DNA from: Spirochaetaceae bacterium | GTDB lineage: Bacteria; Spirochaetota; Spirochaetia; DSM-27196; SLST01 | Reading direction: 5' to 3' | Length of the DNA: 36,698 nt | NCBI GenBank assembly: GCA_007694025.1 | Contig: RECL01000310.1 | Coordinates: 1 to 36,698, forward strand | In this document: one piece after another, positions 28,930 to 33,000 of the stretch | Layout of the letters: each line of letters begins with the position of its first letter | How positions within the stretch are numbered: position 1 is the first letter of the stretch | Translations under genes and position numbers: made by a program | Notes under the pieces: model-generated | Told to the model about the DNA's origin: nothing | Seen by the model: only the letters and a program-made list of their open reading frames with translations | Databases searched by the model: none

Positions 28930-29631
28930 TCAGCGTAGCTCTACAACGCTGACGGTTGCGCCGGCAAGGTGGTATCGCCGGTCGCGGTTGGTCGGATCCG
29001 GCACGCGCTGCCCGTCGACCGAGAAGTAGTAGAGGTGTTCACCGGCGGGCAGGCGCACCCTCCGGACGAAGTGGCCGGGTCGTTCCTCGTGCATCGGGGT
29101 CAGGAACGGATCCCATCCGTTGAAGCTGCCGACCAGTGCCACTCGGCTTCCGGCGGGAGCTGTCAGCGTGAACTCGACGATTCCGTCGGCGACGACGATC
29201 GGAGTCTCCAGCGGCGAGCGATCCCGCGACGGAATCGGCGTCGTCGACAGCCGTACCCCCCAGCGGTCCCGGACTTCGCCGGGAGCGTGCGGATCGGTCG
29301 TCCAGATGCCGTCGACGATCAGGCGGTAGCGCGCCTCGGTGATGTCGCCCGGGAGGTCGACGAGCAGCACGTAGACGCCCTGGTCGTTGCGCCGGAAGCG
29401 ATGGATCGTCTGAAACTCGTCGTGCGCGAACGCGATCGCGACCGTGTGGATCCGGCTCGGTCGGTCGTCGGGAAACTGGTACGTGAACAGCATCTGTCCG
29501 CCCAGCAACCTCGGGGGGCCCGAACGCTCGATGCCGGCGATCTCGAGTGTGACGGTGAGCGACTGCGCCAGGAGAATCTGCGAAAAGAGCGCGAGCGCGA
29601 TTACCAGGCTACTTCTTCTGTTCATACCCAT
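28930..29631 (-). CDS. Secreted protein with C-terminal CBM48/AMPK-type glycogen-binding domain
   Basis: A 233-residue protein. The signal peptide is SSLVIALALFSQILLAQS, probably cleaved after LAQ or nearby. The middle region (residues 40-130) looks like a beta-sandwich (IHTVAIAFAHDEFQTIHRF, YRLIVDGIWTTDPHAPGE). Residues 148-233 are a CBM48-like domain with VALVGSFNGWDPF and GEHLYYFSVDGQRVPDP. No catalytic domain is present, so binding or structural function is likely. The first ATG is 29631; ATG 29625 is equally possible. There is no ribosome site, and TATTGT ends 5 nt upstream. It precedes the acyltransferase gene and diverges from the FlcA-like gene, so a periplasmic or collar-linked role is conceivable. 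Confidence 0.83.
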   Translation of the reverse strand: MGMNRRSSLVIALALFSQILLAQSLTVTLEIAGIERSGPPRLLGGQMLFTYQFPDDRPSRIHTVAIAFAHDEFQTIHRFRRNDQGVYVLLVDLPGDITEARYRLIVDGIWTTDPHAPGEVRDRWGVRLSTTPIPSRDRSPLETPIVVADGIVEFTLTAPAGSRVALVGSFNGWDPFLTPMHEERPGHFVRRVRLPAGEHLYYFSVDGQRVPDPTNRDRRYHLAGATVSVVELR

Positions 29632-29706: not shown

Positions 29707-32700
29707 ATGCCGTCTCTTCAGGACATTCGCCGATTCAACGCCCGGCTCATCTCTCTTGGTAATGAGCCGGAGGTCGTTCGCTCGTGGGGCGAAGAGATGG
29801 AAGACGTGCCCGAGCCCGAGCAGGGACTCGACACCGACCTCTCCGATCTGCTCTCTGACTCCGGCCCCCTCGACGACGAACCGCTGCCCCGCACACGCCC
29901 CCCCGACTTCTCACAGCTCCTGGCCGAAGAGGCCGAGCCGTCCGACGAACCGACTCCCGGGTTCGACGACGCTTTCGACGACGCGGGGGCGGAACCCGAC
30001 GACGACGTGGCCGACTTCTCCTTTGACGACGCGCTCGATGACGTGTCCGACGACGCGCCGGCGGAACCCGACGACGCGCTCGACGATGCGTTCGGTGAGC
30101 CCGACGACGACTTCGCGTTCCCCGATGTCGACGCCGGATCGGTCGATGTCGACGCCGGATCGGTCGATGTCGACGCCGGATCGGTCGATGACGACGCCGG
30201 ATCGGTCGATGACGACGCCGATGACCCGTTCGCGGGCGACGACATGTCCGCGCTGATCGAAGGGCTCGGCGACGAACTCGACGCCGCCGTCGACGAGGAC
30301 GAAGTCGACGAGGGCCCCGAAGAGGGTGAGGCGGGCGGTTTTGATGACGCCGGTTTTGACGACGCCGGCGTCGAGGACGCCGACGACGCCGACGGCTTCT
30401 CATTCGACGACGAGCTGTTCGGCGCCGGCGATCTGGACACCGCCGACTACAGCCAGGACGACGCCGGCGATCAGGGAGCGGCTGACTTTGGCGACGTCGG
30501 CGATCTGGACGCGGGTGACTTTGACGCGCCCGGCGAGCCGCCCGGCGCCGACGCTGAGGTCGACGACTTCGGGGCCGACGGGTTTTCGCTCCCGGACGAG
30601 GAGTTCTCGTTCGACCTGGCCGATGACGAGACCGGTTCCGGCGCGGAGATCGAGCCGGCGCTCCCTGACGACGGAGGGGTCGACGCGGGCGAAGGGTTCG
30701 ATGACCTGGGTGGGTTCGAGTTTTCCGACGAGGAGTTCGCAGAGACCTCATCGCCCGACGATGACTTTTCGTTCGAGGAGCCCGCGGTCCCCGGCGCTGC
30801 GCCCGGCGCGTCGTCGGCCGAAGACGAGCCGGCGGACCTCGATGAGATCGGTGACGACGACCTGGACGAGTTCAGCCTGGGAGACTTCGGCGCCGAGTTC
30901 GGGGTGCTCGAAGAGGCAGGGCCGAGCGAGGAGGATCTCAATCCCGCGGTCAACGTCCCCGAGCTCGTCGAGTCGGCGGCCGCCGTTCCGGGTGACTTCC
31001 AGCTCAACCAGACCGACTTCCGGCAGCTTCAGAAGTCGCTCGCCGGTCTGCCGCTCAATCTGAAGCTGGAAGTCGAGCGGGTCGTCTCCGAGGCGAAGGG
31101 CACGAAGGGCGAGGTTGAAAAGCTCTGCCGGATGCTCGTCGACTCGCGCTCGCCCCAGGAGATCGCCACCTACACGGGCCGGATCGTCGGCAAGCAGATC
31201 CGGATTCCCCGCGGGTATGAGAAGCAGACCGGGCGCGAGTTCGAGCAGGACCGCGACAGCTTCGCGTACCAGTTCAGAGAGAACGTGCTGCCGATCGTAC
31301 GCCTGGCCGCGATCCTTGCCGGCGTCGTGATACTGCTGGGCGTGGCTGGGTACAACCTGGTCTACCGGCCGCTCTACGCCAGGTCGCTCTACCAGCAGGG
31401 GCTCGATCTGGTGCTGAACGACCAGCACTCGCTGGGTAACCAGACCTTCGCGCGCGCGTGGAGCGTCTGGGAGAACCCCGAGTGGTACTACCGCTACGCC
31501 GACGCGTTCGTCGAGCGGCGGCAGTACAACCTGGCGCGCGAGAAGTACGACGAGCTGCTGTTCGGGCGCGACTCTGCGGGCCGCGCCGAGGCGAACCGAT
31601 GGCTCGCCGCGCGCCAGTTCCTGCCGGTCGTCACGGAGTTCTCACCGCCGCGTCGCGGGATCCTGGCCGCCGCGCGGTTCGAATCGCAGATCGTCGGCTC
31701 GTACGACCGCGCGGAGCTTCTGCTGCAGCTCGCGCTCGCCACCGACGTCAACGACTACGATGCGCGCCTTGCGCTCGGCGACAACTACCTCCGGTGGGCC
31801 GATGAAGACCCCGCGCGGTTTGAGGACGCGCGCGTATCGTACGCACGGCTGATCGAGCGGTTCGGGCAGACCGATGAACTCCTGTTCCGTATGCTCCGCT
31901 ACTTCATCCGGACCGACAATATGCCGCGCGTGATCGAGCTGCGCGACGCGTTTGAAGCCGACCCGCGCGCGCGGATCAACGCGGAGATCTACGCCGAGCT
32001 CGCCGGCTACCTGATCGACAACGACCGGATCGATGGGGTCGAGCGTATCCTCTTCCGCGCGATGGACGTCGATAACCGAATTCCGGAGCTCCATTACGAG
32101 CTCGCGCGGCTCTACCGTGAGATAGGCGCGATCGGAGAGGAGCGGTTTGCGTTGCGCACCGCGCGCGATCTCCTGGCGGCCGCCGAGCCGCTGACGCCGC
32201 GCCGCCGCGCGAAGCTCTCCGATACGTACACGCGCATCGGAGAGAACGAGTACGCCTCAGGGCAGTTCATCACCGCGCAGGAGCAGTTCACGGCCGCGAT
32301 CGCGCTCTACGAAGAGGGGCTTCGAAGGCGCATCCTGGGCTCCGACCCGGTTCTTGCGCGCGCGTACGCGCGGTTGGGCGATATCTTCTTCTACGTCGGG
32401 CGTGACTACGAGTCGGCGCTGTCGCAGTTCCTGCTCGCGGAGCAGAACGGCTACCGCACCCCCGATCTCCACTACAAGCAGGGGTTCATCTACTATCGGT
32501 TCGAGCAGTTCGATGCGGCGATCGACCGGTTCCGCCGCACCGCGGAGGATCCGGCGGGACTCACGAACGCGCTCATCTGGGCGACCGCGAACACGCACTA
32601 CCGGCGCGGCAGCTATTTCGCCGCGGAGGCGTACTACCGCGAGCTCATCGACCGGGTCGAGCGCGAGCGCGCGTCGATCCGCACCCTGCTGATCGACGAA

Positions 32701-33000
32701 GACCCGCGCCACCGATCGGTGATCGAATACATGATTCGCGCGTACAACAACCTGGGTGTCACGCTGCAGCGGCTCCACACGCAGACCGGTCGCGCGATGC
32801 AGTACACCGACGGGCTCGTCTTCCTGACCAGGTCTACCGAGCTGTCGGAGAACTATCGTCGTGACCTGGCGACGCTTGCGCGCTCACCGGCGGTCGACCT
32901 TGCGTTCCTGAACCAGAGAGAGGCGCTCTTTCCGCGCCCCGAGTTCGAGATGCAGATCTACGGGCAGATCCCCGACGACCTGGATCATCTGGTCTTCTGA
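29707..33000 (+). CDS. flcA: Large TPR membrane protein, FlcA-like (periplasmic flagellar collar protein)
   Basis: A 1097-residue protein. It begins PSLQDIRRFNARLISLGNEP, then about residues 30-430 are extremely acidic (Asp/Glu/Gly/Ala/Phe) with repeated FDDA and SFDDE phrases. A globular segment (about 435-520) comes before one membrane helix at about 528-550 (LAAILAGVVILLGVAGYNLV). The periplasmic part (555-1097) carries many TPR-like units (WYYRYADAFVERRQYNLARE; YARLGDIFFYVGRDYESALS). In Borrelia, FlcA (BB0326) has a cytoplasmic N-terminus, one helix and TPRs, and builds the motor collar that recruits stators. The neighbouring acyltransferase supports the assignment. AAGG lies 4 nt before the ATG. 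The product is long for the family because of the acidic region. Confidence 0.68.
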   Translation: MPSLQDIRRFNARLISLGNEPEVVRSWGEEMEDVPEPEQGLDTDLSDLLSDSGPLDDEPLPRTRPPDFSQLLAEEAEPSDEPTPGFDDAFDDAGAEPDDDVADFSFDDALDDVSDDAPAEPDDALDDAFGEPDDDFAFPDVDAGSVDVDAGSVDVDAGSVDDDAGSVDDDADDPFAGDDMSALIEGLGDELDAAVDEDEVDEGPEEGEAGGFDDAGFDDAGVEDADDADGFSFDDELFGAGDLDTADYSQDDAGDQGAADFGDVGDLDAGDFDAPGEPPGADAEVDDFGADGFSLPDEEFSFDLADDETGSGAEIEPALPDDGGVDAGEGFDDLGGFEFSDEEFAETSSPDDDFSFEEPAVPGAAPGASSAEDEPADLDEIGDDDLDEFSLGDFGAEFGVLEEAGPSEEDLNPAVNVPELVESAAAVPGDFQLNQTDFRQLQKSLAGLPLNLKLEVERVVSEAKGTKGEVEKLCRMLVDSRSPQEIATYTGRIVGKQIRIPRGYEKQTGREFEQDRDSFAYQFRENVLPIVRLAAILAGVVILLGVAGYNLVYRPLYARSLYQQGLDLVLNDQHSLGNQTFARAWSVWENPEWYYRYADAFVERRQYNLAREKYDELLFGRDSAGRAEANRWLAARQFLPVVTEFSPPRRGILAAARFESQIVGSYDRAELLLQLALATDVNDYDARLALGDNYLRWADEDPARFEDARVSYARLIERFGQTDELLFRMLRYFIRTDNMPRVIELRDAFEADPRARINAEIYAELAGYLIDNDRIDGVERILFRAMDVDNRIPELHYELARLYREIGAIGEERFALRTARDLLAAAEPLTPRRRAKLSDTYTRIGENEYASGQFITAQEQFTAAIALYEEGLRRRILGSDPVLARAYARLGDIFFYVGRDYESALSQFLLAEQNGYRTPDLHYKQGFIYYRFEQFDAAIDRFRRTAEDPAGLTNALIWATANTHYRRGSYFAAEAYYRELIDRVERERASIRTLLIDEDPRHRSVIEYMIRAYNNLGVTLQRLHTQTGRAMQYTDGLVFLTRSTELSENYRRDLATLARSPAVDLAFLNQREALFPRPEFEMQIYGQIPDDLDHLVF
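30124..30207. repeat. 21-bp tandem repeat (4 copies) in the acidic domain of the FlcA-like gene
   Basis: Units at 30124-30144, 30145-30165 and 30166-30186 are identical, and 30187-30207 differs by one base. A partial fifth follows. They encode DVDAGSV/DDDAGSV at residues 140-167. Confidence 0.95.

Follow-up and report, generated by a model that had tools for sequence, protein, structure and literature searches.

An acidic, length-variable tail with recurring phenylalanine motifs in the spirochaete collar protein FlcA

FlcA stabilises the stators of the flagellar motor and is required for the motility of spirochaetes. According to the available text of PMC11750108, in Borrelia it is found in the collar with 16 copies and it binds FliL and MotB; in the Borrelia work which we have found, the contacts reported (FliL, MotB and FlbB) either involve the C-terminal part of the protein or name no cytoplasmic segment. 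The C-terminal construct of Borrelia FlcA comprises aa 360–931 (PMC8609358, available text). The published work on structure and binding of FlcA which we have found deals with its periplasmic part. The family itself is already known: NCBIfam describes both ends of the protein and a variable middle. In the FlcA papers which our search listed we found no description of acidity, disorder or motifs in the tail, and the only use of the word "acidic" found in the flagellar literature on FlcA concerns FlbB; the original BB0326 paper may say more.

The available texts of PMC11870540 and PMC7990780 regard FlcAB of Borrelia as the equivalents of PflAB; we take the equivalence of FlcA and PflB from this literature alone. 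Campylobacter jejuni with a PflB that lacks its N-terminal cytoplasmic region keeps 50% of its motility, and a partner in the cytosol was proposed in that study (PMC11870540, available text).

Here we study the FlcA of a Spirochaetaceae bacterium. We will call window the whole stretch of DNA analysed, 36,698 nucleotides of contig RECL01000310.1. Its FlcA was compared with 60 others from 392 spirochaete genomes, which gives 61 proteins in 19 families. From the genes with listed coordinates and full-length frames, the 60 were taken so as to cover many families and genera; flcA genes broken by contig ends, such as those of G259, G391, G322 and G361, were left out. A further set contains 17 homologues, and other classes of the phylum account for 12 of these; tails shorter than 140 residues and one tail with a masked stretch were excluded from it. 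In the 61 proteins the tail is defined as the region from residue 40 up to the folded part.

The FlcA gene in the window and in other spirochaetes

The flcA gene, which codes for a periplasmic flagellar collar protein, is found in positions 29707..33000 of the + strand, stop included, as an open reading frame of 1097 aa. Both NCBIfam models of FlcA match it above their cut-off: FlcA_CTERM (NF047371) gives 603.2 bits in residues 437–1092, with a cut-off of 300, and FlcA_NTERM (NF047372) gives 46.8 bits in residues 1–38, with a cut-off of 28. The orthology of the TPR part with FlcA, on which an earlier sequence-only reading of this DNA depended, is therefore upheld: judged by its sequence the protein is FlcA, an ordinary example of the family. 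The region to which that reading called attention, 29707–31281, corresponds to residues 1–525. The genome has a single FlcA match and it also encodes FliM.

The full-length structure was predicted with AlphaFold2 on a 54-sequence alignment. The protein starts with a conserved N-terminal element, residues 1–39 (29707..29823, + strand), which begins with MP and has two predicted helices, 4–17 and 20–26, with pLDDT 71–83 over residues 1–40. The acidic tail follows, residues 40–436 (29824..31014, + strand), and is predicted to be disordered, with pLDDT <50 in residues 51–429. Close to the membrane there is a predicted helical domain, residues 430–524 (30994..31278, + strand), which we will call J. 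Its model, of 95 residues, has four helices, with pLDDT ~83–92 over residues 1–70 and pTM 0.69. Foldseek found no match of this fold in the PDB at E ≤ 0.001, and the best VIA-align Z was 3.4. The predicted transmembrane segment is a hydrophobic stretch of the translation at about residues 533–553 (31303..31365, + strand), contained in a long predicted helix, 519–570. In the model this single membrane helix separates the disordered and helical N-terminal part from the helical repeats of the TPR domain, residues ~570–1092 (31414..32982, + strand). The TPR domain falls within the FlcA_CTERM match and is modelled as all-helical, with pLDDT mostly >90. A Pfam scan of the protein at E ≤ 1 gave TPR-type families and one weak DUF4538, nothing else. 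The TPR side is periplasmic in Borrelia (PMC11750108, available text), so that by analogy the TPR domain of the window protein should be periplasmic, and the N-terminal element, the tail and domain J should be cytoplasmic. Such a cytoplasmic part makes up from one third to over half of FlcA.

FlcA is linked to flagella. FlcA_CTERM is found above cut-off in 205 of the 392 spirochaete genomes and in none of 14 control genomes. Its matches below the cut-off are uninformative, since some appear in 11 of the 14 controls, presumably through their TPRs. FlcA_NTERM is above cut-off in 166 of the 392 genomes and has no match at all in the 14 controls; among the matches listed there is a single one per genome. 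FliM is present in all 30 FlcA-bearing genomes chosen. Family f14 has no FliM in the 10 genomes tested, and no above-cut-off FlcA among the matches listed.

Some genomes have peculiar features. Four of them (G063, G169, G245 and G203) have a normal FliM and a second FliM-domain match within open frames of 571–783 aa. In two others, of family f12 and genus g18 (G149 and G317), FliM is found only in a very divergent form (E 5e-9 and 3e-11) and FlcA_CTERM matches only weakly (E ~1e-9): their motor is perhaps remodelled or in decay, or they may have a different system. In G259 and G391 flcA is split, with its N-terminal match on one contig and its C-terminal match on another, probably because repetitive tails break the assemblies; FlcA tails may be under-reported in assemblies. 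Finally, a gene with an AMPK1_CBM/CBM48 domain adjoins flcA in the window (28930–29631, − strand) and is transcribed divergently from it. A homologue of this gene, also divergent and at most 1.2 kb upstream of flcA, is found in 51 of the 65 loci whose upstream sequence reaches 800 nt or more. It is a conserved companion of the collar gene.

Acidity, length and repeats of the tail

The window tail (40–436) has 35.8% D+E and 0.5% K+R, with a net charge of about −140. The acidic, repeat-rich stretch which the sequence-only reading saw ahead of the membrane helix is thus present, and its size of about 400 residues is correct for 40–436, but the first 38 residues of the protein belong to the conserved N-terminal element (FlcA_NTERM). 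The tail was also called very long. It is so in comparison with family f9, probably Borrelia, which has tails of 204 and 217 residues, but its 397 residues occupy only the 25th place among the 61 FlcAs, with lengths from 204 to 902: it is longer than in Borrelia FlcA, as had been said, and not special in the family. In D+E content it is the 12th of the 61 tails.

All 61 tails are acidic, with a net negative charge of 16 to 45% (NCPR); the periplasmic C-terminal part of the same proteins is charge-balanced. The tails of the 17 further homologues are also acidic in all cases. A long acidic tail is common to the whole FlcA family, and its length is free to change. If FlcA has 16 copies as in Borrelia, the ring would carry a charge of about −2200.

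The sequence-only reading offered adaptation to salt as one possible explanation of the tail. Several isolate names among the nearest named relatives (L144–L151) look like soda-lake sediments, which would speak for it. A salt-adapted acidic proteome was discarded: a sample of 176 ORFs of at least 200 aa, taken from the window and 20 other stretches (~6% of the genome), has a median pI of 5.67, and in no ORF other than FlcA is there a 200-residue stretch with more than 20% net negative charge. FlcAs from other lineages have an acidic tail as well, without exception, and this family-wide acidity makes a salt explanation unneeded. That the window tail is acidic as an adaptation of an organism from a saline habitat is hardly credible.

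The most visible repeat of the window tail is a 21-bp tandem array (30123..30220, + strand), with 4.7 copies and 98% matches. It gives the four-copy repeat already noticed: three copies are DVDAGSV, starting at residues 140, 147 and 154, and one is DDDAGSV, at residue 161. Since the 21-bp copies are near-identical, the block is a product of recent slippage. DVDAGSV is found in none of the other 60 tails; it is a minisatellite and it was ruled out as a conserved motif. Of the other 60 tails, 4 contain the phrase FDDA, which has five copies in the window tail, and 1 contains SFDDE; the nearest relative examined, L142, has SFDDE. Both were also ruled out as conserved phrases by these counts. Tandem arrays in other FlcA tails are built of different units. 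An example is the tail of L227, with many tandem copies of a 21-residue unit which contains FELPD: it is a natural amplification of the F-phrase described in the next section.

Conserved short elements

For motif counts 10 sequences of the same genus as another one were removed from the 61, which leaves 51 tails, one per genus. From sequence conservation, the best-conserved piece of the presumed cytoplasmic half is the N-terminal element of ~39 residues: in the 51 sequences Pro2 is found in 50, Glu20 in 49, Pro37 in 48 and Phe10 in 47. Related N-termini (MPKYEDL..., MPSDRDL...) are found in some other classes (L232, L233 and L235).

The best 15-residue pattern found by an unsupervised search over the 51 tails is DLDEFSLGDFGAEFG with its relatives. 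In the window this box corresponds to residues 385–399 (30859..30903, + strand). Its EM objective is 655; 10 shuffled sets average 411, and none of them exceeds 432. Residue F389 is almost invariant in the 54-sequence alignment. When the box is scored with its own family held out, it gives p = 0.001 in the window and p < 0.01 in 20 of the 51 tails; it appears with p < 0.05 at 20–75 residues ahead of the folded part in 17 of the 51. The strong form, EFSLGDFG, is found in families f1–f6 and f17–f22, and also in the f10 tail (p = 0.06); in one more tail of f3 the box position reads FSMGD. In family f7 the held-out scoring gives p < 0.01 in 0 of 13 tails: the box has there another form (FEIPGF). 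In f7, f8 and f11 its position is often occupied by FEIPGF, FSIPGF or FSLPGI. A search of the PDB for the box as a known ligand gave no match at E ≤ 10.

A simpler pattern, F-x-[LIMV]-[PG]-x, which was chosen post hoc after reading these same tails, has 149 copies in the 51 tails, versus 25.6 ± 4.7 in 200 shuffles, with a maximum of 39. The enrichment is ~6x with respect to shuffles and 12x with respect to the reversed pattern (149 vs 12). A copy is present 20–70 residues ahead of domain J in 37 of the 51 tails (3.3 in shuffles, maximum 8), and the density of the motif is 2.7x higher in the zone before J than elsewhere. In the window the copy in this zone is EFSLGDFGAEFG. A dispersed copy is the phrase FSLPDEEF, residues 293–300 (30583..30606, + strand), which the sequence-only reading had pointed out together with further F-phrases scattered in the tail; they are indeed there. 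Its comparison of all these phrases with short linear motifs survives for F-x-[LIMV]-[PG], enriched 6x over shuffles and recurring near the folded domain, but fails for FDDA, SFDDE and DVDAGSV.

The motif is absent from 5 of the 51 tails, including both f9 (Borrelia-type) tails. The 17 further tails, which are partly independent, have 30 copies versus 5.8 ± 2.3 when shuffled, or 14 versus 5.0 ± 2.1 if one tandem array is removed; the 12 tails from other classes have 11 versus 3.6 ± 1.9. It is missing in 8 of the 17. The enrichment in the class and the weaker values of the further set indicate a genuine motif of the class, whose strength outside the class is weak to moderate.

We also looked for peptides of other flagellar and chemotaxis proteins. 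An N-terminal profile of FliM/FliY was built from 30 loci (L252–L281). Peptides like LSQDEIDxLL reach p < 0.05 in 3 of the 51 tails, with a median p of 0.52 and p = 0.27 in the window. The shorter form EIDxLL is found in 6 of the 51 tails (Fisher p 0.016). A CheY-binding motif of the FliM/FliY type was rejected, as the profile is not enriched over shuffles. The tail of L074 contains the phrase VDDLLDSIG, which in our view resembles FliM and the C-terminus of CheZ; a PDB search with this peptide gave nothing at E ≤ 10.

Possible role of the tail and its known relatives

The reading which we prefer, and on which we are evenly divided, is that the tail is a disordered polyanionic tether with docking peptides for a candidate cytoplasmic partner in the motor. 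In this reading FlcA is a TPR protein at the periphery of the collar, held by a single membrane helix, and its TPR domain would lie outside. The far end of the tether would be the conserved N-terminal element, acting in docking, and the F-x-[LIMV]-[PG] peptides would lie along it, the most constant of them about 50 residues before the small helical domain at the membrane. The tether might fish for its partner at the rim of the motor; candidates are MotA, the C-ring or a positioning factor. Capture of the partner might help to put FlcA and its stator unit in place. Acidity would keep the tether extended and soluble, so that the length of the spacer could drift while the peptides stay. The sequence-only reading, which suggested that the tail may serve for multivalent docking or ion sensing, took a variable length without retention of motifs as an argument against its own proposal. 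The length does drift, but the N-terminal element and the F-phrase are kept, which is the evolution expected of a tether with docking peptides.

The charge might suffice by itself. The tail would then act as a bulk polyanion, in spacing, in solubility or in the buffering of ions or protons at the cytoplasmic mouth of the stator, and the F-phrases would only modulate disorder. We consider this rather unlikely. It agrees with the net charge of about −140 for each chain of the window protein and with an acidity more universal (61/61 and 17/17) than the motif (46/51 and 9/17), but charge alone is not expected to give 149 forward copies against 12 reversed ones, or a copy near J in 37 of 51 tails, and the sequence of the N-terminal element has been conserved. 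The pLDDT of 71–83 for residues 1–40 in the full-length model and the presence of J, a conserved helical domain beside the box, suggest another use of the same peptides: the N-terminal element and the F-box could bind J of the same or a neighbouring FlcA, and control the assembly of the FlcA ring instead of recruitment. This we find improbable. Least probable of the three is a functionless neutral linker which tolerates slippage, as the range of lengths (204–902), the minisatellite array and the 21-residue FELPD array of L227 would allow; the conserved motifs, an acidity universal over many families and the precedent of PflB speak strongly against it.

The preferred tether with docking peptides can be extended to the whole ring, although we regard the extension as doubtful. 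About 16 tails around the motor would make up a dense polyanion, bearing F-x-[LIMV]-[PG] stickers by the dozen as well as 16 N-terminal anchors; they might behave as a sticker-and-spacer polymer and form a cytoplasmic capture zone. If so, this zone would keep at the collar the stators, the C-ring or a positioning factor, and it would be a second, cytoplasmic half of the collar, one which would escape tomograms owing to its disorder. The cytoplasmic part of FlcA offers a defined target for the question of which cytoplasmic protein the collar holds.

Among the closest systems is its own family: the NCBIfam FlcA models and BB0326, the FlcA of Borrelia burgdorferi, share with the window protein the conserved N-terminus, variable middle, membrane helix and TPR domain. 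The window tail is about twice as long as the f9 (Borrelia-type) tails (397 vs 204 and 217) and somewhat more acidic; unlike it, the f9 tails have no F-x-[LIMV]-[PG]. HubP/FimV, according to the available text of PMC12918733, are polar membrane proteins which resemble the FlcA tail in having a long cytoplasmic region, acidic, unstructured and variable in length, sometimes with acidic repeats. However, they have a periplasmic LysM and a cytoplasmic TPR, whereas the TPR of FlcA is separated from the tail by the membrane helix. The Pfam scan at E ≤ 1 gave no LysM match in the window FlcA. We have rejected FlcA as a member of HubP/FimV, as it has no LysM match and its TPR is across the membrane from the tail; the acidic region of HubP/FimV may be considered a physical analogue. 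A profile search of the PDB did not give PflB among the best 60 matches listed, which were mostly designed or eukaryotic TPR proteins. PflB of C. jejuni, as described in the available texts of PMC11870540 and PMC7990780, is like FlcA a peripheral TPR protein with one membrane helix and an N-terminal cytoplasmic region, which acts as a stator scaffold. By this analogy it appears to be the best functional precedent for the FlcA tail.
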